The notes under the pieces: model-generated | The model's input: the letters and a program-made list of their open reading frames with translations, nothing else | The model's database searches: none | What the model was told of the DNA's origin: nothing | Position numbers and translations under genes: made by a program | DNA from: a virus | IMG/VR virus record: IMGVR_UViG_3300048837_000718 | Span: 1-23,014 of that record | DNA: 23,014 bases | Reading direction: 5' to 3' (one strand) | Part shown: in pieces, positions 187 through 14,810 of the stretch | Layout of the letters: every line of letters starts with the position of its first letter | Position numbering within the stretch: position 1 is the first letter of the stretch

Positions 187-768
187 TTACTTGACCAGCG
201 CCAACCGCTGCTCGCCCAGGTCAACAGGTGCCCGACTCTCTTCCAGCTCGCTCTGCGCGTGCGCCCCGACCGGGAAGGTCTTCACGAACTGCGCATGCAC
301 CTCTGCGTAGTGGGCAGCCAGCGAGGCCGCAGGCAGGCCCTTGAGCGTGGTCGGCGTCTGGCCCAGGCCCACTTGCAGGCGCTGGATGGCCTGGACGGCG
401 ATCGGTGCGAGCTGCTCTTCGACCGCGGCAAGCTGCTGATTCGCGCCCTTCAGCTGCTGGACTTCGAGGTCCAGGGCTGCTTTGGCATCTCGCAGTTCTC
501 GCAGCTCTGCTTGCAGATATGCCACGAGCCCGCTTTCATCTGCTTTCGGGTCAGTTGGGGCCTGTTGCGACAGCGCAGTCTGGTCTCCCGAGGCTGCCGT
601 TTCGGTCGAAGCAGCCGCCACAGAAGAAGCCTCCACAATCGGATTAACCAATTCGCCATCCGGCACCTCGATCTCGCGCAGCTCGTGCGGCACCGTCGAC
701 AGGTCGACCCCGCTGGCGACCTTGGCGCGGTCCGCTTCACTGAAGAAGACGACCTGTTTCACTTTCAT
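187..768 (-). CDS. Probable nested scaffold protein (internal start in the S49 gene)
   Basis: Met322 of the protease gene (ATG at 766-768, minus strand) is preceded by AGGAG and a six-base spacer, a better ribosome binding site than that of the parent gene. It lies just after the peptidase core and a linker. Translation from it would give a 193-aa scaffold starting MKVKQVVFFSEAD, with a Pro/Ser/Thr-rich linker, a coiled coil and a basic/hydrophobic C-terminus. Lambda and relatives make scaffold (Nu3) from an in-frame start inside the protease gene C, so the arrangement has direct precedent. The separate product is inferred; the start signal is seen. Confidence 0.55.
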   Translation of the reverse strand: MKVKQVVFFSEADRAKVASGVDLSTVPHELREIEVPDGELVNPIVEASSVAAASTETAASGDQTALSQQAPTDPKADESGLVAYLQAELRELRDAKAALDLEVQQLKGANQQLAAVEEQLAPIAVQAIQRLQVGLGQTPTTLKGLPAASLAAHYAEVHAQFVKTFPVGAHAQSELEESRAPVDLGEQRLALVK

Positions 769-1746: not shown

Positions 1747-3246
1747 TCAGGGGCGCTGTGCATTGTCTTTGCCTCCGGCCGAACTGGGTGTCTGCGGAGC
1801 GACCTGGCGATTGCGCGAGTTCGCGGCGTTGGCCGGCATTGTGCCCTCGCCGTCGACCCCGGACGCAGCGGCCCCCTTCTTCATGAAGCCGGTGCCGCTC
1901 AGGGGCGTGAAGCCTTCCGGAAGCGACGAGTTGCCAATCTCCGAGTTCGCCTCGTCATCGGTCTTCATGCCCAACGAGAGCTGCTCGAGCACTCGGCTTT
2001 GGCGCATCACCTTGTGCGGCTCCAGCTCCAGATCGGGCCGCAGCTCCACCGGATCGAACTCCAGCTCTACGTAGGCATCGACCCCATAGAGGCGCACCGC
2101 CAACGTCAGCGCCCTGGACAACACCTCTTCAACCGGCTTCTGCAGCATCGCCGCGGTCTTGGTGGAGAGCAGGGCCTCGACACTTGAGGTGTTTTGGGAT
2201 CCACCCAGCCGCAGGCCGAGCATGGTGGGTGAGGACTTCAGCGCGCTCGCCGCCAGGCCAGACAGCTGATCGATGAGCTGAGCGATCTCCGCCTTCTCGC
2301 CCGTGGTGCGAAGTGCTTCGACCTCGGCGGTGGAATAGACGACCAGCGCATCCTCCGGATTCAGGCGCGAAAGGGCATCCTGATGCGCGATGCGCACATC
2401 GTCCAGATAATTCGAGAGCTTGTTCGGGTCGCCCTTGATCTCCGGCGGCGCGGAGGCGACGACCATCTCATAGTTCAAGGAGACGACCAGCCGACTCATG
2501 CCGGCCCGGGTGATGACGCGCCAGGCGTCTTCAAGGAAGGTGTCGTAGTGGAAGACCCGCGAGAGCCCGGAGTGCATCAGCGGCAGCGCGTACTTACGCT
2601 GTGCGGACTTCAGAGACTCGGCAATGAAGATCGTCGGCAGGTCCAAGACGATGTCGTCGCCGCCCTGTGCATTCTTCTGGGTCGGCACTTTCTTGCCTGT
2701 CTTTGCCACCCAAGTCACTGAATCGTAAGGGAAAACGTGCATATCCCTAGGAAGCCGGTACTGGTCCAGGACCAGCTCCAGCCCGACCCCGCCGGTCAGC
2801 AGCGTCTCCAGGCGCATGGTTTCGATCAGGCCTTCCAGGCCGCGCTTGTCCGAATAGCCTTTCGTGTAATCCCAGTCTGTGGCTAGAGACGCGATGACCG
2901 CCTCGGCAGCCACGACTGCCTCACGGGAAAACTCCTCTGTCGCCGTGTAGTACGCCTTGATTTGGAACTTCGTCGCCATCATGGCGAGGTAATTGGTAAT
3001 CGCGGTCGAGACGATCCCGTCTGTCTCGAACAGTGCCCGCATCTTGGTCGCGGCTGCGGACGAGTTGCGGGCGTCTCTGATCGCACGATTTAATTGGATG
3101 TTGTCGTCGCGCCGGATCTGATCTCCCGGCAGCGCCTGGGAGTAGGCCGTCTGTGCGCGTGCCTTGCCGACTTGCCGACGCGGCAACACCACTGAATCCG
3201 TGCCCTTCTGGCCTTGTGGCGGTCTGACTGAAGAGGGCTCGGCCAT
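1747..3246 (-). CDS. Phage portal protein
   Basis: This 499-aa protein lies between the large terminase and the S49 protease, the standard portal position. Portal proteins form the dodecameric ring at one head vertex through which DNA enters and leaves. Consistent features include an N-terminal region rich in charged and Ala residues, a segment with TDGIVSTAITNYLAMMA (about 94-110) and a YDSVTWV turn (about 173-179). A LIDQLSGLAASALKSSP stretch (about 325-341) precedes an LLSTKTAAMLQKPVEEVLSRAL helix (about 360-381), and a charged C-terminal clip or barrel tail follows. The length is normal for the family. The ribosome binding site is weak (an AGG about 14 bases upstream), so the start is likely but not certain. 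No connector gene lies in the 99 bases between it and the terminase. Confidence 0.82.
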   Translation of the reverse strand: MAEPSSVRPPQGQKGTDSVVLPRRQVGKARAQTAYSQALPGDQIRRDDNIQLNRAIRDARNSSAAATKMRALFETDGIVSTAITNYLAMMATKFQIKAYYTATEEFSREAVVAAEAVIASLATDWDYTKGYSDKRGLEGLIETMRLETLLTGGVGLELVLDQYRLPRDMHVFPYDSVTWVAKTGKKVPTQKNAQGGDDIVLDLPTIFIAESLKSAQRKYALPLMHSGLSRVFHYDTFLEDAWRVITRAGMSRLVVSLNYEMVVASAPPEIKGDPNKLSNYLDDVRIAHQDALSRLNPEDALVVYSTAEVEALRTTGEKAEIAQLIDQLSGLAASALKSSPTMLGLRLGGSQNTSSVEALLSTKTAAMLQKPVEEVLSRALTLAVRLYGVDAYVELEFDPVELRPDLELEPHKVMRQSRVLEQLSLGMKTDDEANSEIGNSSLPEGFTPLSGTGFMKKGAAASGVDGEGTMPANAANSRNRQVAPQTPSSAGGKDNAQRP

Positions 3247-3345: not shown

Positions 3346-5079
3346 CTATGCTGCTGTTTTCATCTTCACGCGGGAGACCAGCAGCGAGCTGGCAGGCTGC
3401 ACGAAGATCTTCGTGTTGTCGTCGCAGAGTTTAGCCGCCAACCAAGCGTAGTATATTGCGAAAAAGAAATGGTTGTCGTCTGAAGAAGTAATCCACTGGG
3501 CTTTTTCGTCCCCAATACCGTCAACATTTACAACGCGCTTCAACTGTTCGAGGTGTGACTTAACCTCTTCCTCAAACTGAAGCCCCATCGGCAACTTGAT
3601 GTACCCTCTGTTCCAGTCAGAAACATACTCATCTATCGTCTTTGTGCGGTTGGCTTTAATAACCCCCTCAGCTTCATCAAGAGTGTACGGCGTCAACGAC
3701 GACTTGCCCTGCCCTCTAATAAAAAAGCAAGCCCACACATTGTTGTACGGCGTTTCTTCTTGAATGCTTTTAGGAATTGTCAGGTCAGGGGCAGCATCGA
3801 CTATTCCCTGAACGGCTCGGTATTGCTTATACCGTTCAATGAACACATTCTTTGTATTATTGCTGCCGTCCTGCACGACCTTCTCCAGGTGAACGATTTC
3901 CAGCAGCTTCCCGTTCTTCTTGCCGATCGCCAAGTGACTGGTCCGGCCCACGTCCATCCCGAGAACCGCGCCGGTAACCGCCCCTGAAAGAGGCCCTTGC
4001 GGTCTAACGGTGAAGCTGTTCTCGATGACCGAGCGCAGGATCATCTCCCCGGCACCCTCTGCCGCGCAGCCCAAACCAAAACGCTGCCAGGTCACGTTGT
4101 CTTTATAGGTTCCGAGGTCCCGAATAAGTCTGGGAGGGTTGCGGATCTGCGGCAGGACCAAGGCGTTTGCATTGTAAGACGCATCTCTTCTGTCAGGGTA
4201 TTCGGCAACCCATGCCCTATATGTCGGCTCTGCCATGTTCGCTACAGTGATTGGCTTCCTGCATTCAGGGCAAAGAATATGGGCCTCGTCTATCCGGTAA
4301 TTAGGATTGGTTAAATCCGAAGGCGACAGCAGTGTGATGTTTTCATCAAAGCCAGGCAGGATAAGATGCTGCAGCAAATCTGGCAATACCCAGCGTCCAC
4401 AAACTGTGTGCCATATCATATAGTGATTGCGCGTACCGTCTTCAAACAGCTTGGTAATTCCTGACCCAGGAAACAGCGGGCTGGAAAAGTAGCGAACAAT
4501 GCGCTCTTCTTCTTTCTGGTGGCCTAACCGTGACGCAAAAATTTTCACGATCTCCGGGTTCAGGAACTCCATTTCGTCCAGCATCAGCATTCTGGCCGGG
4601 GTACTGATGGCCGAGCTTGTCGCGGACCCGCCCAGCAGATGCAGAAATGATCGGCCGATCCGCTTTAGCATTGTGCTGTCGACATCCTTGGCAACAAGGT
4701 TCTTGAGACGGGGGCTCGCTTCGATGATCGGGTCGATGCGCGTGCTTGCGATCTTACTCGCACCGTGTGCGGTCGGCATCACGTAGAGGCCGTGAATCCC
4801 GCGGTACTTCGCCAGAATCGCCAGCGCCTGGCGAATGGATAACTCAGAGAGTCCACATTGCGTGGATTTTTTAATGCTCACAACCGGGTGGTTGTCGTCC
4901 AGAATCGCCCGCTGGTACTCATGGCCTTTGAAGCTGAACCGCTTGTTCGGGTCGACCGGATCGCTGGTGTTGGTTTCGACCCACTTGCTGATGTTGGAGA
5001 GCCCGCCTCCGGTGGTCGAGGCGGATTCGACCTGATCGACCAGGGTCAGGAATAGGTCTTCGTCGAAGTGGACGGACAT
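3346..5079 (-). CDS. terL: Terminase large subunit, GpA family
   Basis: This 577-aa protein has the two-domain layout of lambda GpA-type terminases, the ATP-driven motor and nuclease that cuts and packages DNA. A Walker A-like loop, SIKKSTQCGLSE (68-79), is the degenerate form seen in GpA proteins. The Walker B is RMLMLDE (163-169), with Asp168 and catalytic Glu169. Cys227, Cys270 and Cys273 suggest a metal-binding insert. The RNase-H-like nuclease core shows GMDVGRT (Asp376), IVDAAPD (Asp428) and SSDDNHFFF (Asp534/535), all acidic positions expected for metal binding. Much of the gene looks more AT-rich than the portal and protease genes downstream, hinting at mosaic origin. No small terminase is visible beside it. 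Confidence 0.93.
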   Translation of the reverse strand: MSVHFDEDLFLTLVDQVESASTTGGGLSNISKWVETNTSDPVDPNKRFSFKGHEYQRAILDDNHPVVSIKKSTQCGLSELSIRQALAILAKYRGIHGLYVMPTAHGASKIASTRIDPIIEASPRLKNLVAKDVDSTMLKRIGRSFLHLLGGSATSSAISTPARMLMLDEMEFLNPEIVKIFASRLGHQKEEERIVRYFSSPLFPGSGITKLFEDGTRNHYMIWHTVCGRWVLPDLLQHLILPGFDENITLLSPSDLTNPNYRIDEAHILCPECRKPITVANMAEPTYRAWVAEYPDRRDASYNANALVLPQIRNPPRLIRDLGTYKDNVTWQRFGLGCAAEGAGEMILRSVIENSFTVRPQGPLSGAVTGAVLGMDVGRTSHLAIGKKNGKLLEIVHLEKVVQDGSNNTKNVFIERYKQYRAVQGIVDAAPDLTIPKSIQEETPYNNVWACFFIRGQGKSSLTPYTLDEAEGVIKANRTKTIDEYVSDWNRGYIKLPMGLQFEEEVKSHLEQLKRVVNVDGIGDEKAQWITSSDDNHFFFAIYYAWLAAKLCDDNTKIFVQPASSLLVSRVKMKTAA

Positions 5080-5169: not shown

Positions 5170-5772
5170 TTACGAACAAGCAGTGCAGGACTTACTCCTA
5201 GCCTCTTCCTTTGGGTTTTTCATGTCTTTAATTGCTAGCGGGACCCTGTCGTGATTGACGTGAAACCCGTATAATTTTTCAGCATATTTTCTAGCCGCAA
5301 TAGCTTCGCTTAGCTCAGTAAAATGCCCAATATTTATTTTCTTGCGATTAACCATTATGTAGGATGCCCACTTTCTTCTGTCAGAAGCCCAAGAGACTCC
5401 AGTTACCCCACTGGAGTTGTTCTTTTTTCGCTGCATGTTTTTACCATTCTCCTTCCTACTGACTATGCGTAGGTTATTCCATGAGTTATCTCCGCGGTTT
5501 CCGTTTATGTGATCTACTTCTTTTTCAACTCCTGGGTCTTCCCCCGTCATAATCAGCCATGCTAGTCGATGTAGTAAATATCCTTCTTTGTTTATTCTGA
5601 CCGTTAAGTATCCGCTTGTTGGAATCTTAGTCCCTACAAGCTCTCCTATACGCCTATTTCTTGCTGACTTGGTTTTTCTAGTGAATAGCCCGGTCTCAGG
5701 ATCATACCGGAACAGCTCATGCAGTCGCTCTTGCGAGGGAAGTGGTTTGCGTGCAGACTTGCGGTCGGTCAT
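5170..5772 (-). CDS. HNH homing endonuclease with AP2 DNA-binding domain
   Basis: From ATG 5772 (GGGAG eight bases upstream, preferred over an in-frame ATG at 5826 that lacks one) the product is 200 aa. The N-terminal part has the FRYDPETGLFTRK strand pair typical of HNH_3 proteins. The nuclease core follows: His68 (LLHRLAW), Asp87-His88 (VDHINGN) and the NNLR motif with Asn100. Residues 122-170 (GVTGVSWASDRRKW onward) match an AP2 DNA-binding domain. Proteins of this build are free-standing homing endonucleases that nick intronless target genes and spread by recombination. The gene looks clearly more AT-rich than its surroundings, as expected of a recent arrival, and it sits immediately upstream of the terminase, a common niche. 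The C-terminus ends in a short Cys-containing tail (SCTACS). Confidence 0.9.
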   Translation of the reverse strand: MTDRKSARKPLPSQERLHELFRYDPETGLFTRKTKSARNRRIGELVGTKIPTSGYLTVRINKEGYLLHRLAWLIMTGEDPGVEKEVDHINGNRGDNSWNNLRIVSRKENGKNMQRKKNNSSGVTGVSWASDRRKWASYIMVNRKKINIGHFTELSEAIAARKYAEKLYGFHVNHDRVPLAIKDMKNPKEEARSKSCTACS

Positions 5773-5980
5773 CTTCGATCTCCCAGATAGATTGAGGTTG
5801 GCAAGTGGCCCAGGTGCCTTCAACACTCTGGGCCGCGTCTCTTATTGTCCCACCGGGAGGGTGGAAGTCAAGGGCTGGTGGCTGGGTTCTGAAGCTGGCA
5901 CAGTAGGACTGGCTAAGTGCTTAGTAAAAACTTGAAAATCTGCTCGGGGTTTTTGGGGGTACAGCGCAGCCCTCTACACC

Positions 5981-5998
5981 TTGGCACGCCAATTGCAT
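5981..5998 (+). promoter_or_regulatory. Sigma-54-type promoter 1 (rightward)
   Basis: TTGGCACGCCAATTGCAT matches the sigma-54 -24/-12 consensus (YTGGCACG, four bases, TTGCW) at every conserved position, with GG and GC exactly ten bases apart. The predicted start is near 6008. It is the best single match in the window. Confidence 0.72.
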
Positions 5999-6008
5999 AG
6001 CGTACGGG

Positions 6009-6026
6009 TTGGCACGTTATGTGCTT
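6009..6026 (+). promoter_or_regulatory. Sigma-54-type promoter 2 (rightward)
   Basis: TTGGCACGTTATGTGCTT has a perfect -24 half and a -12 half (GTGCTT) with the invariant GC, spaced GG-N10-GC. It begins 28 bases after promoter 1 on the same strand. Predicted start is near 6036. Confidence 0.6.
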
Positions 6027-6048
6027 ACACACGAAGCGTGCCAGGTTG

Positions 6049-6066
6049 TTGGCATGCGGTTTGCTT
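6049..6066 (+). promoter_or_regulatory. Sigma-54-type promoter 3 (rightward)
   Basis: TTGGCATGCGGTTTGCTT differs from consensus by one base in the -24 half (CAT for CAC) and has a perfect TTGC at -12, again GG-N10-GC. Its predicted start, near 6076, falls inside the first GTGAC dyad, so binding there could block it. Confidence 0.6.
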
Positions 6067-6116
6067 GTGACGCTTTACGTCACATTGTGACGTTCGATTG
6101 TGACACTCTGCGTCAC
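6066..6116. promoter_or_regulatory. Two GTGAC-N7-GTCAC dyads, likely activator or repressor site
   Basis: TGTGACG, five bases, CGTCACA forms a perfect dyad at 6066-6084. GTGAC, seven bases, GTCAC repeats it at 6100-6116, and a lone TGTGACG half site lies between them at 6086-6092. The dyad centres (6075 and 6108) are 33 bases apart, about three helical turns, so both face the same side of the DNA. They lie roughly 133 and 100 bases upstream of the predicted start of promoter 4, a usual place for enhancer sites of sigma-54 activators. The spacing does not fit a CRP site. The cognate protein is unknown. Confidence 0.6.
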
Positions 6117-6118
6117 CT

Positions 6119-6136
6119 ATGCACCTAGTGTGCCAG
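6119..6136 (-). promoter_or_regulatory. Sigma-54-type promoter 5 (leftward)
   Basis: On the minus strand CTGGCACACTAGGTGCAT gives a good -24 half (CTGGCAC) and a -12 half with the invariant GC, spaced GG-N10-GC. The predicted start is near 6109, pointing toward the HNH, terminase and head genes. The second GTGAC dyad overlaps this start. Confidence 0.58.
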
Positions 6137-6180
6137 CTTAGTTTGTTCGTAAGCTCTTGTTTCTATTCACTATTATTTAC

Positions 6181-6198
6181 TTGGCACATAGTTCGCAT
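6181..6198 (+). promoter_or_regulatory. Sigma-54-type promoter 4 (rightward)
   Basis: TTGGCACATAGTTCGCAT keeps the full TTGGCAC of the -24 half and the GC of the -12 half, spaced GG-N10-GC. Its predicted start near 6208 gives a leader of about 120 bases before the 6328 gene, making it the closest candidate promoter for the right arm. Confidence 0.62.
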
Positions 6199-6327
6199 CG
6201 GTGTGAGTGCCAGTCTGGCAAGGGCTTGAACCCTTCGCCCACTGGCTGGGGTTGATCCGCTTCGGCAGGATCCCCCGACCATAGCCCGACAACCAGACCC
6301 GCAAGGGCCACAACCTGGAGATCCCAC

Positions 6328-6942
6328 ATGGCCGCCAACACCTTCAACGTCAAAACCGCCACTACCGAGCTGCTCGGCTTCGCCGCTCGTCAAGGGGAGT
6401 CCTTGACCAAGCGCGCCAAGCCTCTGGCGGATGCTATCGCCGAGACGCCAGAGTCCGAGCGGTCCGCGTTCGCTCACCAATCTTTCCTCGCTGCGCGTGG
6501 TGAGGTTGTCGCGGCTAAGATCAGCAACGCTAAAGATCGAGCCCGCGCCTTGTCAAAAGCCTGGAACCGTATTGTCGATGCGGTCCGGTATCACCTTGGC
6601 AAAGCTGACCTGTCAGTCACGTTCCCGAACCTCGGGAGCGGCGAAGGTGAAACTGTGGTGCAAACCACGGCTGAAGCTGGCATCGCTCGCAAAGTCAAAA
6701 AGGCTGACCGCGAAGAAGCGGACGCGCAAGCGTTGGAAGCGTTCCAAGCGGAGCGGGCGCAAGCGGAGCTGGACGCGCTCCGCGCGATGTCGCCCGACGA
6801 CTTGACCGCGCAAATCGTCGCCATGCTCGACGCATGGTCCGATGATGCGGCCATGCGCGCCCAAGTCGTCGCCAACGTGCGGAGCGCGGTTTGCCCGACG
6901 ATTGACCTTTTGAGCAAGCGCCCCGAATTGCTCGCCGCTTGA
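6328..6942 (+). CDS. Unknown 204-aa alpha-helical protein, first gene of right arm
   Basis: I do not recognise a family. The protein looks soluble, Ala-rich and mostly helical. A charged stretch at about 120-160, rich in Ala, Glu, Arg and Gln (KKADREEADAQALEAF), is a probable coiled coil. There is no signal peptide or membrane segment. The start is set by AACCTGGAGA six bases upstream, the leader shared by several genes further right. It is the first gene after the sigma-54-type promoters, a position often used for regulators or early takeover proteins. That role is inference. Confidence 0.85.
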   Translation: MAANTFNVKTATTELLGFAARQGESLTKRAKPLADAIAETPESERSAFAHQSFLAARGEVVAAKISNAKDRARALSKAWNRIVDAVRYHLGKADLSVTFPNLGSGEGETVVQTTAEAGIARKVKKADREEADAQALEAFQAERAQAELDALRAMSPDDLTAQIVAMLDAWSDDAAMRAQVVANVRSAVCPTIDLLSKRPELLAA

Positions 6943-6966
6943 TCCCGTCCGACCCGGCCAATAAGT

Positions 6967-6996
6967 CGAACCGATACACCAAGCGTGTACGGTTCG
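6967..6996. repeat. Bulged hairpin after the 6328 gene
   Basis: CGAACCG-A-TACAC pairs with GTGTACGGTTCG around a CAAGC loop, giving a 12-base-pair stem with one bulged A. No T run follows. It lies 25 bases after the stop of the 6328 gene and could be a weak terminator or an RNA 3'-end stabiliser. Confidence 0.5.
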
Positions 6997-7017
6997 CCTT
7001 GCCCCATTGTTTCTAAA

Positions 7018-7062
7018 GTGTTTTTATGGAATCCGTAGATTCTACGGATTCCATAAAAACAC
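7018..7062. promoter_or_regulatory. 45-base perfect palindrome, operator-like
   Basis: Two 22-base arms are exact complements around a single central T at 7040. The inner part, AATCCGTAGATTCTACGGATT, reads as two copies of the AATCCGTA element that recurs at 7293 and 7392. It lies 15 bases before the start codon of the 7077 gene, so a bound protein or the RNA hairpin would affect that gene. No T run follows. Confidence 0.7.
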
Positions 7063-7076
7063 AAGCGGAGCGAACC

Positions 7077-7280
7077 ATGTTGAACCCGGTCTTTCTGCGC
7101 CGTGCGGCGATCGCCGCACGGGAATTCGAACGCGCCAGAATTGCCAAGCAACAAGCGGACCAGCGCCGGCTCGACCGAATGTCGATTGCTGGCGACCTGT
7201 CAGACATCGACGCGCCGGTATCCAAACCCCAAGCTCCACAATGCTGGATCGGGAGCGACGGGAAGCCGTACCGCGGCTGA
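7077..7280 (+). CDS. Small unknown basic protein (67 aa)
   Basis: The frame opens at 7026, inside the palindrome, but GGAG six bases before the ATG at 7077 marks that as the real start. The product is basic in its first half, with an Arg/Ala/Gln-rich helix (RRAAIAAREFERARIAKQQA, about 8-27), then a Pro-rich linker and a short C-terminus ending in GSDGKPYRG. No family is recognised. It is framed by operator-like palindromes on both sides, which suggests tight control. Confidence 0.72.
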   Translation: MLNPVFLRRAAIAAREFERARIAKQQADQRRLDRMSIAGDLSDIDAPVSKPQAPQCWIGSDGKPYRG

Positions 7281-7292
7281 TCCAGCGGATTC

Positions 7293-7305
7293 TACGGAAT
7301 CCGTA
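7293..7305. promoter_or_regulatory. TACGGAWTCCGTA element, copy 2
   Basis: TACGGAATCCGTA is a 13-base palindrome with an unpaired central A. It lies 12 bases after the stop of the 7077 gene and just before a 24-base-pair hairpin. The flank (GGATTC before, AAATTC after) resembles the copies at 7018 and 7392. Confidence 0.55.
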
Positions 7306-7312
7306 AATTCTA

Positions 7313-7363
7313 CGCGCCAGCCCCGCCCGCCCGATCTTCGATCGGGCGGGCGGGGCTGGCGCG
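7313..7363. repeat. Perfect 24-base-pair GC hairpin
   Basis: A 24-base arm starting CGCGCCAGCCCCGCC is followed by the loop TTC and its exact complement. The stem is almost all G and C, so it should be extremely stable as RNA or as a DNA cruciform. The following bases (TGCGTGCAATTCGG) contain no T run, which argues against an ordinary intrinsic terminator. It is bracketed by operator-like copies 2 and 3. Confidence 0.75.
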
Positions 7364-7383
7364 TGCGTGCAATTCGGCCAACC

Positions 7384-7413
7384 GTGAATTTTACGGATTC
7401 CGTAAATTTTCAC
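7384..7413. promoter_or_regulatory. TACGGAWTCCGTA element, copy 3
   Basis: TACGGATTCCGTA (7392-7404) is the core of a longer, slightly imperfect palindrome that opens with GTGAATTT and closes with AAATTTTCAC. It lies about 20 bases before the start codon of the 7433 gene, in a position to act as an operator. Confidence 0.6.
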
Positions 7414-7432
7414 CTGATGCGGAGCAATCATC

Positions 7433-7885
7433 ATGCGTGCCCGTGGCCCGACACTCAAGGTCTCGGATTTCCCGAGCTTCAATTCCGAAAACCCGAATCC
7501 TGCTATTCGCTTTGCTCTTTACCGCCCTAGAAATGGGGCGCAATCGATCGGCACGCTCTGGCGTGACGAGCGCCCCGCACAGCTGCCTGAGCGGCAGTTT
7601 CACGCCCATGCGCCGGGCAAATGCGGATCGGCCGGGCGCACCAACGGGATGCCATGGGACGGCACCTCGCCGATCAACGAATCGACCTTGGTCGAGATCG
7701 GGAAGTCTCGACCTGTCGCGCCCAGGAACCTCGAAAGTCGGCTCGCCCATATGTGGCGCTCCTATGCGCCTAATGAGCTGGTCATAGAGTTGTTGGGCCT
7801 TTCAAATGAGATCAGGCCCTATTCAAGCGAGATCGCCGACGATGTGGCGTGGCTCGCGTCGGTCGCGTGGGAACGCGCAAAATGA
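7433..7885 (+). CDS. Unknown 150-aa protein
   Basis: No family is recognised. The start has GGAG eight bases upstream. The N-terminal two thirds is rich in Pro, Arg, Asn and Gly and looks poorly ordered or extended (ERQFHAHAPGKCGSAGRTNG around 53-72). The last 50 residues (LAHMWRSYAPNELVIELLGL onward) look helical. Its last codons overlap the next gene in an ATGA junction at 7882-7885, so the two are probably translated together. Copy 3 of the operator-like palindrome lies just upstream. Confidence 0.78.
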   Translation: MRARGPTLKVSDFPSFNSENPNPAIRFALYRPRNGAQSIGTLWRDERPAQLPERQFHAHAPGKCGSAGRTNGMPWDGTSPINESTLVEIGKSRPVAPRNLESRLAHMWRSYAPNELVIELLGLSNEIRPYSSEIADDVAWLASVAWERAK

Positions 7886-8055
7886 TTCCCCGCGCCCTCT
7901 TCCACAGACCCGCCAAGGGGCAACCATGGCGGACCAACACAATCGCGCTCGGCAACTACCTGGCCGGGCGCCCGGATGCCGAGCGTGAGAAGATTGTGAA
8001 GCGCACCATCGTTTGGTGCGCGAGGGTTAATCGAAAGCTAAAGCTGGAAAATTAA
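7882..8055 (+). CDS. Small basic unknown protein (57 aa)
   Basis: An ATG at 7882 overlaps the stop of the 7433 gene (ATGA), a classic translational-coupling junction, so this is preferred over the in-frame ATG at 7849. The product is strongly basic, with RPDAEREKIVKRTIVWCARV (about 31-50) likely helical and a Lys/Arg tail. A nucleic-acid-binding role is possible from charge alone. No family is recognised. Confidence 0.68.
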   Translation: MIPRALFHRPAKGQPWRTNTIALGNYLAGRPDAEREKIVKRTIVWCARVNRKLKLEN

Positions 8056-8074
8056 CCCCTGGTCTGCAGTTGTC

Positions 8075-8101
8075 GGCCCCTCCCGATTTCGGGGTCGGGC
8101 C
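8075..8101. repeat. Two-part hairpin before the 8121 gene
   Basis: CCCGA-TT-TCGGG forms the inner stem and GGCCC/GGGCC the outer stem, with small internal loops. It lies in the 65-base gap between the 7882 and 8121 genes. No T run follows. Confidence 0.45.
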
Positions 8102-8120
8102 ACAATCACGGAGAAATACC

Positions 8121-8558
8121 ATGTCCGCGCAACGTCTTTCTGTCCGGCGTCGGCAATGGCGTGACAGCGTTGAGGTCGTCACCAGATACCGCCTAGAAGT
8201 AGAAGGCGTGCGGGTAGCCATCAAGACCCACGCGACGACGTGGGACTCTGGCGAGTCCGAGATCGAGATCGATTTTTGGACCCCGAAGACCCGGTGGGGC
8301 GAGTCGACCAAGATCGCCCTTCAGAGGTGGAAAGAGCCGGTCAAGGCTTTTTCCACGATCTCGCGCGAGATCGAGAACCTGTACCGCGAGCACGCCGAGC
8401 AAGGGTACAACGTGGTGGTCTTCGCCGCGTGCGAGAAGCGGTTGAAGATCTACTGGCGCTGCGCCATGCGCGCCACGCGGGACTTCCACGACATGCACTG
8501 GCGCCCGCTCGTAAGGGAGGACGGAGCTAAGGGCTTCATCATATTCCCTTACTGGTGA
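8121..8558 (+). CDS. Unknown 145-aa protein, probably alpha/beta
   Basis: GGAG seven bases before the ATG at 8121 sets the start; an upstream in-frame ATG at 8070 lies in the hairpin and lacks one. The sequence alternates amphipathic beta-like segments (VEGVRVAIKTHATTW; SEIEIDFWTP) with a charged helix (EPVKAFSTISREIENLYREH) and a strand (GYNVVVFAACEKRLKIYW), suggesting a compact folded domain. Aromatic and charged residues are abundant (FHDMHWRPLVRE near the end). No family is recognised. The stop codon lies inside the first unit of a 31-base tandem repeat. Confidence 0.78.
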   Translation: MSAQRLSVRRRQWRDSVEVVTRYRLEVEGVRVAIKTHATTWDSGESEIEIDFWTPKTRWGESTKIALQRWKEPVKAFSTISREIENLYREHAEQGYNVVVFAACEKRLKIYWRCAMRATRDFHDMHWRPLVREDGAKGFIIFPYW

Positions 8559-8617
8559 GCTATAGGAGCCCCCGCAAGCTTGCGGGTGAGCCATAGGAGC
8601 CCCCGCAAGCTTGCGGG
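8556..8617. repeat. Tandem 31-base repeat, two palindromic units
   Basis: Two 31-base units (8556-8586 and 8587-8617) differ at one base (TGAGCTATAGG against TGAGCCATAGG). Each contains the perfect 16-base palindrome CCCGCAAGCTTGCGGG. In the second unit the palindrome extends outward to 26 bases (8597-8622). The first unit begins with the stop codon of the 8121 gene. Confidence 0.8.
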
Positions 8618-8660
8618 GGCTCCGACAAGCCCATCCCCTAGGGTAGGCTTGTCGGAGCCC
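8617..8660. promoter_or_regulatory. 15-base-pair hairpin overlapping the repeat hairpin
   Basis: GGGCTCCGACAAGCC pairs with its exact complement across a 14-base loop that itself holds CCCTAGGG. Its left arm uses bases that the second palindromic repeat unit also needs, so the two hairpins are mutually exclusive. That is the layout of an attenuator or other RNA switch ahead of the 8738 gene. No T run follows either hairpin, so any switch may act on translation or RNA processing. Confidence 0.6.
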
Positions 8661-8737
8661 TTAGAGGCCCATTCTCGCCCCGTGAGGGGCATTCATCAAG
8701 CTCGGCGAAGGCCGGGCATACTCGGAAGGAGATTCCC

Positions 8738-8917
8738 ATGTCTGACAATTTTGGATGGGCGTACTGGGCCGATAGCCGTCTCGTCTATGAAGACGACGAC
8801 GGCTACCGCACGTTCGCCAAGGACGGATGGCATTGCTGGTGCCCGCCCGGTGTCGAGCCGGGAGACGCGGACAGCGAGGTCCGCAAAGATAACACGATGG
8901 AGGCTCCCGCCTCGTAG
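8738..8917 (+). CDS. Small acidic Trp-rich protein (59 aa)
   Basis: This short frame is supported by a strong AAGGAG seven bases before the ATG. The product is acidic and unusually aromatic for its size: four Trp (7, 10, 31, 34) and a WHCWCPPG motif (31-38) with two Cys. No family is recognised. It is the only convincing gene between 8559 and 9777 and is surrounded by hairpins on both sides. The upstream pair of competing hairpins could control it. Confidence 0.68.
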   Translation: MSDNFGWAYWADSRLVYEDDDGYRTFAKDGWHCWCPPGVEPGDADSEVRKDNTMEAPAS

Positions 8918-8927
8918 GAGCCCTCTT

Positions 8928-8947
8928 GGGCCTCCGCAAGGAGGCCC
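8928..8947 (+). repeat. GNRA-capped hairpin after the 8738 gene
   Basis: GGGCCTCC, loop GCAA, GGAGGCCC: an eight-base-pair GC stem closed by a GNRA-type tetraloop, ten bases after the stop of the 8738 gene. No T run follows, so it is more likely an RNA 3'-end stabiliser than a terminator. Confidence 0.55.
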
Positions 8948-8955
8948 CTCAAAAT

Positions 8956-8995
8956 CCTATGCCCCTTGTCGCCCGTTGCGTCAGGGAGGCATAGG
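8956..8995. repeat. CCTATGCC / GGCATAGG inverted repeat
   Basis: Eight-base arms at 8956-8963 and 8988-8995 flank a 24-base loop. A second inverted repeat (CAGGCC/GGCCTG) follows within 30 bases. They form part of the continuous hairpin series in this region. Confidence 0.45.
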
Positions 8996-9034
8996 AGGCG
9001 TCTCAGGCCCGCCTGTTTTGGCCTGATCTGAGCC

Positions 9035-9069
9035 AGATTATGTCAAGTCATCGCGACTTGACATAATCT
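9035..9069. promoter_or_regulatory. 35-base palindrome: 15-base arms, 5-base spacer
   Basis: AGATTATGTCAAGTC, spacer ATCGC, then the exact complement of the first arm. Perfect arms of this length with a short spacer suit a dimeric DNA-binding protein or a recombinase core site. As RNA it would be a stable hairpin, but only TCTT follows, so termination is doubtful. No recombinase gene is visible in the window. Confidence 0.6.
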
Positions 9070-9132
9070 CTTCGCGCGCCCGTGCGAAAAATACCACAAA
9101 ATTCGCACGAGGCGCTTAGCTTTTCACAAACT

Positions 9133-9280
9133 AAGGAGGCACATCGAAACGTCTCTTCAACAAGCATTGAAAGCAGAAAGCCGAACAAGCTCTGCTTTTC
9201 TTCGTCATCGGAGGCGCCTCGCTAGGCGCTTTCTCGCTTTTCTTTTGAGCAAAGGCCGATCAAAGGAGGCACACGAAACG
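9133..9280. repeat. Direct repeat AAGGAGGCAC...CGAAACG, two copies
   Basis: AAGGAGGCACATCGAAACG (9133-9151) recurs as AAGGAGGCACACGAAACG (9263-9280), one base shorter. The AAGGAGG part looks like a ribosome binding site, but neither copy precedes a usable start codon. A partial third copy, AAGGAGGC, lies near 9709. The repeats bracket the terminator-like hairpin at 9214. Confidence 0.5.
9214..9246 (+). terminator. Possible rightward intrinsic terminator
   Basis: GCGCCT, loop CGCT, AGGCGC is followed by TTTCTCGCTTTTCTTTT. The stem is only six pairs and the T tract is interrupted, so this is a moderate candidate. It would separate the 6328-8917 gene group from the two large genes at 9778. Confidence 0.4.
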
Positions 9281-9390
9281 CCGATTTTTCTTACTTTTTG
9301 TAAAATAAGTTTCGGATTTTCGGCCCGATCTTTTCCTTACAAATAAGAAAATTTTACGGTGTTTTGGCCTTTTCGAGGATTTTCAGCGAG

Positions 9391-9592
9391 TTACAATCCG
9401 TAGGATAACTTCAAGTCCTCGGGAAACATTTTCCTTGAACTGGCGCTTTTATTACAAAGATGCTAGTCGCTCGAATTGTTTCTTAAACTTAAGCGTTTTT
9501 GACAAGGCATCTTAAAAATTTTTTTAGGATCTTCAGAATTTAGTTCAGAGGAAATGTTTCCCGAGGACTTGGAGCGATCCTTAGGATTGTAA
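9391..9592. other. Long foldback: 51-base inverted repeat with 100-base loop
   Basis: Arm 1 (9391-9441) and arm 2 (9542-9592) are complementary at 43 of 51 positions by hand alignment, with an uninterrupted 20-base core (CAAGTCCTCGGGAAACATTT in arm 1). The loop holds a further inverted repeat, AAGATGC/GCATCTT (9457-9463 and 9507-9513), and a TTGACA at 9498. No frame crosses it convincingly. The mismatches are spread along the arms, which fits a stem kept under selection or an old inverted duplication. Structured non-coding RNA, origin and control element are all open. Confidence 0.6.
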
Positions 9593-9777
9593 GTGACTGT
9601 ATTCAAAGGACCTAAGCAAATTGTACTTTTTAGTGAAGGTAACACGGCGTACACCAGCTGTGTTTCCCAAGTTAGGCGCTCAGGGTGCCGTTCTGCGACC
9701 GTGGAAGAAAGGAGGCTTGCCAAAACAAAGGAGCTGCCTTAAACTGCCATCTTCTGCCCCACATTAAGGATTTGAAG

Positions 9778-11544
9778 ATGGCAAAGCGTTTCGACCTCAG
9801 GCATCCAGACACCCACCAAGCCTTAGAGGAGGCGATTCTGTGCGTTTGCTCGGCCGCTGATGCCCTCCTCAGCCTCCCGGCTGAGGAGGGCGCCCTCTTT
9901 CACACGCTCTCGATACCGGGCTACGGCCGAGTTCTGGCTCACGAGAGTGCGATACGGTCTTGGTTTACGGCGGCCTACGAGGAGTACGCCGAGTTCATGG
10001 CCGAGCACCTCCTGACCCGTCCCGAGATGGTCTGGAGCGACATCCTGAGCCTGTCGGTCCCGTTCCGTCCGGACAGGCTCTGCCTGACCCTTGCCCTATC
10101 CCCGAACCAGCCCTCGGAGCCTCAGGGAAGCCCACCGCGAGCGCACGCCTATTGGAACTGGTCCGGGTCCCGAGAAACTTGGGATCCGTCCAAACCAACG
10201 GCGTGCGAAAGGAGGCATCACCTCGTCGGGGAGGGGCCGTCCTTACCGGGACGTGAGAAAGGCCACAGAATCGCCCTGGCCGAGCTGCTGCTCTGCACGG
10301 TGGTCCAGGCCAACAAGGAAAGGCTACCGACCGGCCATAGGCCGCAGGTGACGCTCCTGGAGACGGCCTCGCTGCCGGTCCCCGCCCCTCCGCCGGAGAA
10401 GCGGCCGAATCCGGTCGGAAGGCCGAGAGTCGGAGCGCGCCCTTCGGATACCGAGGGACAACAGGCGGCTGCGCCGTTCGGAGACCCGCGGCTGGTTCAA
10501 GCTGCCCATGAAAGGCGGGCTGAAACGCTTCAGCTTCCGGACGGCCGAGAGGTCGAGATCATCGACTGGTCGGATCTTCAGTACCCCTTCGGAAGGAGAG
10601 TTCAAAGCAAGGTTGCCGCGCTGATGCGAGTCGAGCACCTCAGAGGCAAAGTCTACTGGGAAGAAGAGGAGATCCTTGAAAGGCATCGCCAGAGAGGCAA
10701 GGCGATTCCCGGGCAAGAGATCAAGATGATGCACTTTAAGACGCAGTTCGGGCGGGTTACCCTGAATGCGAAGCAGCTCATCTGGGCGTACTGGACTGCC
10801 GAAGTACCTGATCTGGTAAGGAGGAGGACGTATATCGCTTCCCACGTCCAAGGTGGCCTAAACAGTGTGTACAACATGGTCGCAAAGGGATTCAAGTTCG
10901 GGTCGTTACAGGAGCGAGAGGCGTTTCTGGAAGCCGGGCATGCAGACAAACTAAAGATTTGGAGAGACCTGCAAGGCAACGAAGCGCTGATTGTCCTGCG
11001 AGACCGGTCTTATTCAAAGTCGATAAGCCCCGACTTCAAGGTCAAGCCTGGCACACCGGACCATGAGATTCAGAAGACGAGGAAGCTCCCTGCTTTAATC
11101 GGCAAGCTCTTCGCAAATAAGGTGAAGAGAGGAGAGCTGCAAGCCGCAGAGGCATACCGCCGGGCGAAGATACTCTGTATGGATCATCGCGGATGGGAGG
11201 ACAACGAGGATTTGGAAGTTCCTCTGCCGCAGGAGCAGACCGCAGTGAGAGAGTGGCTGGACAGGGAGACCTCGGAGCGCGCCAAGATGAACGAGGCTAG
11301 ACTCGTCGCTAACTCCAGCAGGGCGTCTGCCGGGCTGCTCAGCATCATGAAGATGAACAACATCGCGGAGGGAGCAGAGGATTACAGCCGATTTGCTGAG
11401 TGGTGGGTGCGTGGAGACGAGAAGGTCTCCAGTATTTTGCAGGAAGAGTTTCGTGTTGTGTTGGCCTTGGCGCCGGAGGATTATGGAGTTGAGCCTATCG
11501 ACATGGAGGCGTTGGCTGATCAGCGCGGGAGAATTCAGCAATGA
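9778..11544 (+). CDS. Large unknown protein (588 aa) with degenerate HNH-like segment
   Basis: The start is set by AAGGAT before the ATG at 9778; the in-frame ATG at 9685 lacks a binding site. Residues 1-120 look helical. About 120-250 is Pro/Arg/Gly-rich and probably disordered. A folded part follows. Residues 282-360 read like the N-terminal half of an HNH_3 protein: LMRVEHLRGKVYW, then RGKAIPG, then KQLIWAYWTAEVPD (332-345), which parallels the HRLAWLIMTGEDP of the HNH gene at 5170. The first His is replaced and no DH or NNLR motif follows, so nuclease activity is unlikely. The C-terminus is charged and helical. The gene ends in an ATGA overlap with the next. Function unknown. Confidence 0.85.
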   Translation: MAKRFDLRHPDTHQALEEAILCVCSAADALLSLPAEEGALFHTLSIPGYGRVLAHESAIRSWFTAAYEEYAEFMAEHLLTRPEMVWSDILSLSVPFRPDRLCLTLALSPNQPSEPQGSPPRAHAYWNWSGSRETWDPSKPTACERRHHLVGEGPSLPGREKGHRIALAELLLCTVVQANKERLPTGHRPQVTLLETASLPVPAPPPEKRPNPVGRPRVGARPSDTEGQQAAAPFGDPRLVQAAHERRAETLQLPDGREVEIIDWSDLQYPFGRRVQSKVAALMRVEHLRGKVYWEEEEILERHRQRGKAIPGQEIKMMHFKTQFGRVTLNAKQLIWAYWTAEVPDLVRRRTYIASHVQGGLNSVYNMVAKGFKFGSLQEREAFLEAGHADKLKIWRDLQGNEALIVLRDRSYSKSISPDFKVKPGTPDHEIQKTRKLPALIGKLFANKVKRGELQAAEAYRRAKILCMDHRGWEDNEDLEVPLPQEQTAVREWLDRETSERAKMNEARLVANSSRASAGLLSIMKMNNIAEGAEDYSRFAEWWVRGDEKVSSILQEEFRVVLALAPEDYGVEPIDMEALADQRGRIQQ

Positions 11545-13163
11545 ATAAGGCGGCACACAAGGCTTTCAAGGAGTTTATACGATCTGTAGGCCAAGAGGCA
11601 GAAGATGTCCGCATCATAGCTCCAGTTCTCAATGCGGAGGGGTCGTTTGATGGGTTACCCCTACCTGACCTATATTCTGCGACGGACTGGTTTGAGATTG
11701 TGGAGCCGCTGCTGTATGGGTATCTATTCAAGGTGCCTGGCGCGCTAATCGAGGGAAAGGCAATCATTGCCGCCGAGGGCATCATCGAGGCGTCTTTCTT
11801 TCATTTGGAAAATCCGGAACAGGAGTATTCCAACTACAAAAAGACGGGAGAGATTTCGAGCGGACAGTACAAGCTGCTGTCATCTAAACTGGTGGTCGGC
11901 CCGCAAAAAGAACCTCTTTTGATAGAGGGAGAGGAGTTCGATGATTGGCTTGAGTTAAGGACTGGGGGCACGGGGTGGAGCATCCCGATTATCCTAAAGC
12001 CCTACGACGAAGCGCTTTGGTTGGTGCAGGACGAGGACGATCCCGATGCAACTCCAAGCCCGGCACTTGCATCGGAAAAGCTCGAGGAGGCAGCCAAGCG
12101 CTGGAGGCAGTTCTGTGAGACAGCTCCTCGGATTCAGCGCAGGGCCGCTGCAAAACTCCTGCGCGACGAGAGAGAAGCGGCCCGCGGAAGAATGAGCAAG
12201 GATAAGATCGCGCAGCGCAGGCAACTCAGGAGGGCGTACCGTCTTGAGGTTCTTGCCGCTCGCCGGATCGACCGGATCGATTTGAAAGATCCGCTGCTGG
12301 TGTGTGCGGTAAGGACGAAAAAGAAGTTTGAAAACAGGGAGTTAGATGAAGGCTCTCCGGCTGTGCAGGTCAAGATTACAAGGATGGCAGAGCGTGCGCG
12401 AAGTCTTGGCCTGGCGCCCAAGAGGGGCCTGCGCACGGTGACTGTCCACAAGCAATGGGAGGGGCCTGCGAAGGAGTGTGGGTTATTGCTCGAGCCTCAA
12501 TACAAGGGTGCTCAATACAAGGGTGCTCAATACAAGGGTGCTCAATACAAGGGTGAGCAGTACCAGGTCAACGAGCGGCCTGTATACTCGGCTCCGAAAG
12601 GAGACTTTCTGTTTGCTGATGAGTTCTTTGACGAGAACGTGCTGGACATGCCATCCCCTCTAATTGCTGGGTTGTGGTCAAGGAATCAGCTGACTAAACC
12701 AGACAAGCGCAAACGAGATAAGAAGCCTGATCTACTGATAGCAAGATCGCTGGAGAGGCGGAGGAGAGATAAGGTTGACGCTAGAAAAAGGCCGCTGTCC
12801 GTCGAGAAAAAGCTCAAGGAGATGGGAGATAAGTACCCATTAGGCACGGAGCCACGAACCTATTTGATCGGCGCTAAGACAGGCAATCTGTATCCGGCCA
12901 AGTTCGTGCGCTACGGCGATCACTTGCAGAAGTATTTGCCGAGCGAGTTTAGAGCGGAATACGGGCACCTATTTACCGACGAGACGGTGCTGGCGAGGTT
13001 GCTTAGGCAGGAGCCGTATTCTGCCGGCACAGATAAACCGTCTTTTATATATCTACCACCTGAAGAGAGGCTTGTGGTTTGTTTTGAAGATGAGCTGGTC
13101 AACGTGGTGCGCGGCCAGGAGAGGATGAAGATGGCGGATCTGCACCGATACCTTGAAACTTGA
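11541..13163 (+). CDS. Large unknown protein (540 aa) with QYKGA repeats
   Basis: Its ATG overlaps the previous stop (ATGA), so the two large proteins are probably made in linked amounts and may act together. Residues 1-170 look like a folded acidic domain. About 175-260 is a long, highly basic helical stretch (AKRWRQFCETAPRIQRRAAA onward), a likely nucleic-acid or partner-binding segment. Residues 320-339 are four QYKGA-type pentamers from a 15-base tandem repeat. A second basic stretch (about 390-430) precedes a C-terminal folded domain with EPRTYLIGAKTGNLYP near 435-450. No family or catalytic motif is recognised. There is no membrane segment or signal peptide. Confidence 0.85.
   Translation: MNKAAHKAFKEFIRSVGQEAEDVRIIAPVLNAEGSFDGLPLPDLYSATDWFEIVEPLLYGYLFKVPGALIEGKAIIAAEGIIEASFFHLENPEQEYSNYKKTGEISSGQYKLLSSKLVVGPQKEPLLIEGEEFDDWLELRTGGTGWSIPIILKPYDEALWLVQDEDDPDATPSPALASEKLEEAAKRWRQFCETAPRIQRRAAAKLLRDEREAARGRMSKDKIAQRRQLRRAYRLEVLAARRIDRIDLKDPLLVCAVRTKKKFENRELDEGSPAVQVKITRMAERARSLGLAPKRGLRTVTVHKQWEGPAKECGLLLEPQYKGAQYKGAQYKGAQYKGEQYQVNERPVYSAPKGDFLFADEFFDENVLDMPSPLIAGLWSRNQLTKPDKRKRDKKPDLLIARSLERRRRDKVDARKRPLSVEKKLKEMGDKYPLGTEPRTYLIGAKTGNLYPAKFVRYGDHLQKYLPSEFRAEYGHLFTDETVLARLLRQEPYSAGTDKPSFIYLPPEERLVVCFEDELVNVVRGQERMKMADLHRYLET
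12498..12557 (+). repeat. Four tandem 15-base repeats inside the 540-aa gene
   Basis: Three identical CAATACAAGGGTGCT units and a fourth ending GAG encode QYKGA three times and QYKGE once. A decayed fifth unit (CAGTACCAG) follows. Near-identity at DNA level points to recent slippage expansion that kept the frame. Confidence 0.85.
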
Positions 13164-13547: not shown

Positions 13548-14810
13548 ATGAAAAGTATGAAGATCAATGGCATCGAGGTGCTTATCGCCCCAGGCGCCGA
13601 CTTGCGAGGCGCCCGCTTGCAAGGCGCCGACTTGCGAGGCGCCCGCTTGCGAAGCGCCGACTTGCGAGGCGCCGACTTGCAAAACGCCGACTTGCAAGGC
13701 GCCGACTTGCGAGGCGCCGACTTGCGAGGCGCCCGCTTGCGAGGGGCCAACTTGCAAAACGCCGACTTGCAAAACGCCGACTTGCGAGGCGCCCGCTTGC
13801 GAAGCGCCGACTTGCGAGGCGCCGACTTGCAAAACGCCAACTTGCAAAACGCCGACTTGCAAAACGCCGACTTGCAATGGGCCAACTTGCAATGGGCCAA
13901 CTTGCAGGAGGCCGACTTGCGAGGAGCCGACTTGCGAAACGCCGACTTGCGAGGAGCCAACTTGCGAGGAGCCAACTTGCGAGGAGCCAACTTGCGAGGA
14001 GCCAACTTGCAGGAGGCCGACTTGCGAGGAGCCGACTTGCGAGGAGCCGACTTGCGAAACGCCGACTTGCGAGGAGCCGACTTGCAGGAGGCCAACTTGC
14101 AGGAGGCCAACTTGCGAGGAGCCAACTTGCCGGGAGCCAACTTGCCGGGAGCCAACTTGCCGGGAGCCAACTTGCGAGGAGCCAACTTGCGAGGAGCCAA
14201 CTTGCGAGGAGCCAACTTGCAATGGGCCAACTTGCAGGAGGCCAACTTGCAGGAGGCCAACTTGCAGGAGGCCAACTTGCAGGAGGCCAACTTGCGAGGA
14301 GCCAACTTGCCGGGAGCCAACTTGCGAGGAGCCAACTTGCAGGAGGCCAACTTGCAGGAGGCCAACTTGCAGGAGGCCAACTTGCGAGGAGCCAACTTGC
14401 CGGGAGCCAACTTGCGAGGAGCCAACTTGCGAGGAGCCGACTTGCGAGGAGCCGACTTGCGAAACGTAAAGATAAGCTACCTGACGACAGGTATGCAGGA
14501 AGCCCCTCAAGGAGAGCTGTTGGGATATAAGAAGGTAATGGATTGTATCGTGTTGTTAAAAATCCCGAGGGAAGCCGCCCGCTCCTGCGCGACATCGCGC
14601 AAGCACAGAGCTGAATATGCAGAGGTGATCTGCATTGAAGACAGTCATGGGCAGGCAGTGGAGAACGTATACAATATCAATTATGGCGTTATGTATAGAG
14701 TCGGCGAACTGGTATTCCCGGACTCGTGGGACGAAGACCGATGGAAAGAGTGCAGTCACGGGATCCACTTCTTCTTGACGGAGGAAGAGGCGCGTGCCTG
14801 GTCGGGTTAA
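13548..14810 (+). CDS. Pentapeptide-repeat protein with C-terminal DUF5758-like domain
   Basis: The start is set by AACCTGGAGA six bases upstream. After 16 residues (MKSMKINGIEVLIAPG) come 58 uninterrupted A(D/N/R)LXX pentapeptides (residues 17-306), which should form a right-handed quadrilateral beta-helix of about 14 coils. The last 110 residues are a separate domain: YKKVMDCIVLLKIPREAARS, a CATSRKHRAEYAEVICIE segment, then VGELVFPDSWDEDRWKECSHG and IHFFLTEEEA. This resembles the C-terminal domain (DUF5758 type) found after pentapeptide repeats in other phage proteins; the domain name is recalled, not searched. Some pentapeptide proteins mimic DNA and bind gyrase, but that function is not established for this type. 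The array is remarkably free of decay. Confidence 0.92.
   Translation: MKSMKINGIEVLIAPGADLRGARLQGADLRGARLRSADLRGADLQNADLQGADLRGADLRGARLRGANLQNADLQNADLRGARLRSADLRGADLQNANLQNADLQNADLQWANLQWANLQEADLRGADLRNADLRGANLRGANLRGANLRGANLQEADLRGADLRGADLRNADLRGADLQEANLQEANLRGANLPGANLPGANLPGANLRGANLRGANLRGANLQWANLQEANLQEANLQEANLQEANLRGANLPGANLRGANLQEANLQEANLQEANLRGANLPGANLRGANLRGADLRGADLRNVKISYLTTGMQEAPQGELLGYKKVMDCIVLLKIPREAARSCATSRKHRAEYAEVICIEDSHGQAVENVYNINYGVMYRVGELVFPDSWDEDRWKECSHGIHFFLTEEEARAWSG
13596..14465 (+). repeat. 15-base tandem array, 58 units
   Basis: Each unit is a variant of GCCGACTTGCGAGGC; CTTGC is almost invariant. Units up to about 13910 mostly use GGCGCC or AACGCC at the junction, while units after that use GGAGCC, CGGGAGCC or AGGAGGCC, so the array has two compositional halves. 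The second half also has a higher-order repeat: the 30-residue block QEANL x3, RGANL, PGANL, RGANL occurs twice in a row. Because 15 is a multiple of three, several other frames stay open; those are artefacts. Confidence 0.95.

Follow-up and report, generated by a model that had tools for sequence, protein, structure and literature searches.

The stretch from position 8918 to position 9777 of the window, by which we mean the whole 23,014-base piece of viral DNA that was analysed, is a real, structured and gene-free control region, and it most probably serves as a leader of an ordinary kind. It lies directly 5' of a rightward gene set. The reading we prefer, which in our judgement has about an even chance of being right, is that the region comprises a cis-acting promoter and the structured leader of a rightward (early-type) operon, in which a hairpin pairs the start codon of the first gene. 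This reading rests on the fact that the gap heads a rightward gene set, on its hairpins, on a long foldback within it, and on the placement of the AUG in a stem.

The gene-free stretch and its foldback

The window is the entire IMG/VR record and is probably a genome fragment. Its main features are laid out as follows.

Positions 187 to 1731, minus strand: S49-type head protease
Positions 1747 to 3246, minus strand: portal
Positions 3346 to 5079, minus strand: terminase
Positions 5170 to 5826, minus strand: HNH nuclease
Positions 6328 to 8917, plus strand: small genes
Positions 6943 to 9069, plus strand: hairpin-rich zone with perfect hairpins between the small genes (7018-7062, 7293-7404, 8565-8623, 8617-8660 and others)
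Positions 8918 to 9777: gene-free stretch heading the rightward operon
Positions 9778 to 11544, plus strand: P0001, a 588-aa orphan protein and the first gene 3' of the gap

Relatives of the head genes (terminase, portal and protease) are present in Pseudomonas phages PMBT3 and Lana and in Vibrio phage SHOU24, and the window phage is of one family with them. Downstream of the gap, P0001 heads a long run of plus-strand genes, mostly unknown. P0001 had no match in Pfam, PHROGs, the PDB, phages, viral contigs or genome contigs; a 39-residue match of 13.7 bits among 11 records was taken as chance, and the AlphaFold model of the protein was unusable (mean pLDDT, 36). No relatives of a second orphan gene, P0002, were found in viral contigs. 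P0002 contains a tandem repeat with a 15-base unit (CTCAATACAAGGGTG) at 12496-12570, and the gene at 13548-14810 encodes a pentapeptide-repeat protein with a DUF5758 domain at its C-terminal end.

An earlier reading of the sequence only had noted more than 700 bases without a credible gene, at 9070-9777. This was borne out, and the true stretch is longer: the last small gene stops at 8917, and the next gene begins with the ATG at 9778. No open reading frame of coding-like codon use was found in the gap, where the codon-use scores were -0.007 for the minus-strand frame at 9463-9723 and -0.05 for the plus-strand frame at 9685-9777, against about 0.1 to 0.4 for the other genes. The region also is AT-rich, as had been claimed, with a GC content of 0.438 over 9070-9777 compared with 0.557 for the window. 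The surroundings had been described as densely coded, which holds only in part, since a second stretch at 5827-6327 is likewise gene free and 6943-9069 is filled with hairpins. It is AT-richness (0.44 versus 0.56) together with length, not stability, that sets the gap apart.

The elements recognized in and just upstream of the core of the gap are the following.

Positions 9035 to 9069: perfect palindrome of 15 bp with a 5-nt loop, overlapping the promoter-like site
Positions 9040 to 9067, plus strand: sigma-70 promoter-like site ATGTCA-16-CATAAT, a consensus match only (9/12)
Positions 9076 to 9115, plus strand: GC-rich hairpin of 13 bp (z -5.0 for 9074-9114)
Positions 9153 to 9162, plus strand: weak boxA-like site CTCTTCAACA, with one mismatch to the 10-nt core and two to GCTCTTTAACAA
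Positions 9169 to 9199, plus strand: hairpin followed by a pyrimidine-rich tail
Positions 9210 to 9233, plus strand: terminator-like hairpin with a T-rich tail
Positions 9384 to 9599: long foldback, the main feature (core 9391-9441/9542-9592)
Positions 9745 to 9783, plus strand: 10-bp hairpin with an AAGGA ribosome-binding site (RBS; 9766-9770) in its loop and the ATG (9778-9780) in its 3' arm

The arms of the foldback (9384-9441 and 9542-9599) are 58 nt long, 81% complementary and 100 nt apart. The 202-base foldback described in the sequence-only reading, with a 51-base repeat and a 100-base loop, was confirmed: 43 of the 51 core positions are paired (84%), and the self-match has an E value of 1.1e-10. 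Folded alone, the foldback gave z scores of -10.7 on the plus strand and -10.4 on the minus strand, and none of 100 shuffles was equally stable on either strand. The repeat said to be nested within the loop proved to be within chance (z -1.2 on the plus strand, with 15 of 100 shuffles as good).

We also considered whether the foldback has no function and is either an inverted duplication in decay or a small mobile element with inverted repeats that entered the gap. Its mismatches would accord with this, in that three would be G-U on the plus strand and three on the minus strand, which reveals no strand preference, as would its absence from all relatives found: searches with the region in phages (near and distant DNA searches) and with the arm sequence in viral contigs returned no relative of the foldback. 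Twelve contigs carrying a 16-base arm sequence had a single match each, without the inverted pair, and were taken as chance. Against such an origin, there is no second copy within the window, no target-site duplication was seen by eye at the foldback ends, and the mismatches often are neighbouring pairs that form internal loops. We regard this as the least probable of the explanations considered.

Folding of the whole region (9070-9790) gave z scores of -8.2 on the plus strand and -6.9 on the minus strand (0/20 shuffles on each strand), and 9027-9777 gave -10.1. The 5' part (9070-9383) adds structure to that of the foldback (z -4.4). At 9600-9790 the z score is -1.4, and the start codon is the one structured place in this part. 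There, the P0001 start region had a z score of -3.3, with none of 100 shuffles matching it; at -17.4 kcal it ranked second in stability among the 18 start regions that were folded, and its AUG is fully paired. The most stable of the 18, that of the gene at 8738 (-19.3), has its AUG free. The promoter-like site at 9040-9067 is found on both strands owing to the palindrome. A simple scan found three terminator-like sites, none of them between the foldback and P0001.

Rival readings of the region and a proposed mechanism

The length of the region (700 to 860 nt) and its z scores of near -8 to -10 would fit a large structured RNA that stands alone, like GOLLD or ROOL, with which it also shares a phage context. 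GOLLD and ROOL are both Rfam families. A covariance search against Rfam gave no match to GOLLD, ROOL or any other family at gathering score anywhere in the window, in agreement with the earlier statement that the region could not be matched to a known class. Matches below threshold in 8560-9800 were to microRNA-type and other hairpin families, lay far below gathering score and were set aside, as any long hairpin scores against such models. Also against a free RNA are the unremarkable folding of 9600-9790 and of the loop, that is, of the parts other than the foldback and the 5' hairpins, the lack of any tRNA found in the window, and its cis position before a gene, which differs from that of the large ornate RNAs GOLLD and ROOL (PMC12286853). 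As no terminator-like site lies between the foldback and P0001, we prefer the cis leader to a free RNA, and we consider the free-standing RNA highly improbable. Of the earlier proposal of a candidate structured RNA or origin, then, the structured RNA is reasonable as a cis leader; the evidence points away from a free-standing ornate RNA, and an origin has no support.

The reading as a replication origin supposes an AT-rich unwinding region with a hairpin recognized by a phage initiator. The region is AT-rich, has a strong inverted repeat and adjoins a change in GC skew, and P0001 could be the initiator. However, no TTWTNCACA box occurs in the window (the scanned stretches of eight relatives held only one, at L023:11698), and there are no direct repeats in 8700-10000. 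The GC-skew minimum of PMBT3, at 46,022, is far from its gap at 82 to 83 kb, and in the window the skew tracks gene direction and is uninformative for a fragment of this kind. An origin is, in our assessment, improbable.

The gene-free stretch closes a hairpin-rich zone that extends from 6943 to 9784. A rival account is that it is simply a spacer of the hairpin type. By that account, transcription would be driven by sigma-54-like promoters located near 6000, with the foldback as the largest processing or termination hairpin of the 6943-9784 series, without a leader function of its own. Perfect hairpins do part the small genes, and upstream tiles of 700 nt are more structured than the gap: z was -14.8 for 8401-9100 (plus strand) and -12.1 for 7001-7700 (minus strand), compared with -7.8 for 9101-9800 (plus strand), against a background of 64 tiles with a mean z of -2.1 (standard deviation, 3.1). 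The equal stability of the foldback on both strands and four sigma-54-type sites at 5981-6198 point the same way. The gap, however, greatly exceeds the other spacers in length, differs from these GC-rich spacers in being AT-rich, and matches in position the leaders of related phages. We consider the spacer account unlikely, though deserving of real weight.

The sigma-54 (-24/-12) consensus is TTGGCACG-N4-TTGCWT. The four sites, with 0, 1, 1 and 2 mismatches, are all on the plus strand within 218 bases, upstream of the gene at 6328, and a further site with 3 mismatches lies on the minus strand at 6119-6136. At up to 3 mismatches, the whole window contains 10 matches compared with 3.6 expected. 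This clustering suggests RpoN-dependent transcription, as predicted from consensus matching. Single sites with 0 or 1 mismatch, all on the plus strand, also occur in Lana and three relatives (L010:15769, L022:60, L025:560 and L029:1039), and those of L022 and L025 fall in mutually alignable stretches. The perfect hairpins of 20 to 25 bp between the small genes (7018-7062, 7293-7404 and 8565-8660) lack U tails, and the motif TACGGAWTCCRTA occurs three times among them, at 7038, 7288 and 7387.

In the preferred reading, that of a promoter and cis-acting leader, transcription would start near the palindrome at 9035-9069, which probably would also serve as an operator, and would proceed rightward through the gap into P0001. 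The leader transcript would pass the terminator-like hairpins, perhaps with the help of Nus factors at the boxA-like site at 9153. The 58-bp foldback would serve for processing of the RNase III type or for RNA stability, and translation would be kept low by the hairpin covering the P0001 AUG until this is opened. Against this reading count the lack of strand preference in the foldback mismatches, the promoter-like site close to the first gene of the relative L062, the lack of a match in the window to three covariance models of the relatives' leaders, and the absence of such a gap from the available flank of 11 of 20 relatives.

Such an arrangement has a known counterpart. The N leader of phage lambda comprises PL, nutL, an RNase III hairpin and the N start. 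In the order of its elements, the window shares with it a putative promoter, a boxA-like site, a large double-stranded stem and a first gene whose start would be controlled by a hairpin. It differs in that no boxB-N system was identified in the window, the downstream gene encodes a 588-aa orphan, and the foldback is larger.

Leaders of related phages

Alignments of the portal gave 22 and then 67 loci, including those of PMBT3, Lana and SHOU24. Where loci are called distinct below, near-identical ones were dropped (L024 and L026 for L022, L017 for L016, L073 for L072, and L099 for L078). Gene-free gaps of at least 420 bases upstream of the portal were found in 9 of 20 loci examined (L016, L061, L062, L078, L087, L093, L094, L097 and L098); the gap reaches the locus end in L087 and L094, as does one of the gaps of L062. 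The remaining 11 had no gap in the available flank, among them L105, which still has a leader of the type described below. An apparent gap in L012 was rejected, as it belongs to a 327-aa reading frame that the locus end truncates.

The closest long relative with synteny to the window is L062 (48% portal identity), in which an HNH nuclease is followed by a homologue of the gene at 6328 (E value, 3.7e-15) and a weak homologue of the gene at 7433 (3e-4). L062 also has intergenic hairpins, and one hairpin is repeated threefold at the place that matches the 7018-8660 hairpins of the window. Inspected by eye, L062 has a sigma-70-like promoter only about 70 to 80 nt before the first gene, and the greater share of its gap may thus lie outside any leader.

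In the seven relatives that were aligned, the gap contains CTCTTTAACA or its one-mismatch form twice, together with a promoter-like site and with conserved helices that continue as far as the first gene's start. We take CTCTTTAACA to be the rrn-type boxA core. Two boxA sites with at most 1 mismatch, 250 to 420 nt apart, were found on the early strand in 12 of 38 loci and on the late strand in none of the 38. The 12 loci represent 10 distinct ones, with the near-identical L024 and L026 removed, and in these the two sites are about 300 to 370 bases apart. The structured leaders with two boxA sites are at L008:16097-17001 and L010:18536-19442 and in the gaps of L022, L023, L025, L028, L029, L093, L097 and L105. 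In these 10 distinct relatives, the gap clearly reads as a leader with predicted antitermination signals.

Five of the leaders, and then seven after PMBT3 and Lana were added, were aligned, and covariation was counted on these 7 of the 10 distinct leaders (L093, L097 and L105 are outside the alignment). Across three helices, covariation was 0.442, compared with 0.171 ± 0.031 in shuffled controls and at most 0.158 in slid ones; for the hairpin just before the RBS of the first gene, it was 0.420 compared with 0.122 ± 0.036. Because the helices were chosen from a fold of this very alignment, their paired percentages lean upward, and double changes are the stronger evidence; long-range pairs in the A3-wide consensus fold were not relied on. 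The covarying hairpin (A5, in the seven relatives) ends just before a AATAAGGA RBS. A model of this hairpin, R1, matched only these leaders in 420 kb. In PMBT3, the leader has an exact boxA at 82,680 and a one-mismatch site at 82,380, and these are the only boxA sites with up to 1 mismatch on both strands of its 87 kb. The leader heads a minus-strand run from gp110 to gp34, about 48 kb long, within which gp106 is on the plus strand.

The boxA2 pattern gave 11 matches, of which three were left out as leaders: L051, where the boxA-like site lies directly 3' of a small gene and which we take to be a nut-type site, and L053 and L057, which have the same local sequence. The literature searched yielded no description of boxA in these phages; by text search, the terms "boxA" and "antiterminat" were absent from the PMBT3 genome paper (PMC8421299) and from the Lana genome paper (PMC7368026).

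The window compared with the leaders of its relatives

The region in the window resembles these leaders in that it heads the early-side gene set, and also in its length, its AT-richness relative to the flanks, its early-strand structure and the hairpin near the first gene start. The distance from the -10 element (9062-9067) to the boxA-like site also is similar, at 85 nt in the window compared with 83 to 90 nt in the five of seven aligned relatives measured (L028 and Lana were left out, TAGTATT being absent there). A boxA-like site 60 to 110 nt after the promoter-like site arose in 4 of 2,000 shuffles, for a spacing match that was noticed post hoc. A boxA-like site alone, which in the window is without the leading G, arose in 106 of 2,000. 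Among 23 relatives' loci without the dual site, 10 boxA-like matches were found compared with 5.3 ± 2.7 in shuffled sequence, and an enrichment of single sites was rejected as not above chance. The boxA-like site at 9153, with the spacing of the relatives, is suggestive only.

Unlike these leaders, the window has no exact boxA and no second boxA, and it has the long foldback, which was not found in them. Its two boxA-like sites, at 9153 and 9895, are 742 nt apart, and the second lies within P0001. The R1 model had no match in the window; with filters off, the highest scores in 8900-9900 were 3.4 bits for the model of the boxA1 region (R2) and 4.1 bits for that of the boxA2 region (R3), too low to count as matches. 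By these sequence tests, the window's copy is not a member of the dual-boxA leader family.

The relatives' leaders also resemble the bacterial rRNA operon leader, in that their sites carry the rrn-type boxA core CTCTTTAACA; they differ from it in that no rRNA is encoded here, and the window's own site is degenerate. The rRNA leader uses boxB-boxA-boxC antitermination (PMC10250234). Tentatively, then, a non-lambdoid siphophage family may have copied the rRNA strategy: an untranslated leader of about 700 nt, bearing conserved helices and rrn-type boxA sites (usually two), would yield a Nus-modified, termination-resistant host RNA polymerase able to read about 50 kb with no lambda-N-like protein acting there. 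In the window this leader would have diverged and acquired a lock on the start codon as well as the 58-bp foldback of the RNase III type. We think this full scheme unlikely to hold as it stands. Gene-free gaps in phages, even large ones, often go unannotated, and the rRNA-type antitermination sites in the relatives' leaders suggest a means by which very long operons may be expressed in phages of this kind through the host polymerase. The dual-boxA leader of the ten phages probably is a more interesting object than the foldback of the window.

Single boxA-like sites were observed on the minus strand in two relatives with gaps, at L061:5876-5847 and L087:836-773, with a CACGGGGA/ACGGGGAAG motif 29 and 63 bases later, respectively. 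This motif resembles one that follows boxA1 in the Lana-type leaders, and the pairing possibly reflects a wider element composed of boxA plus CGGGGA.
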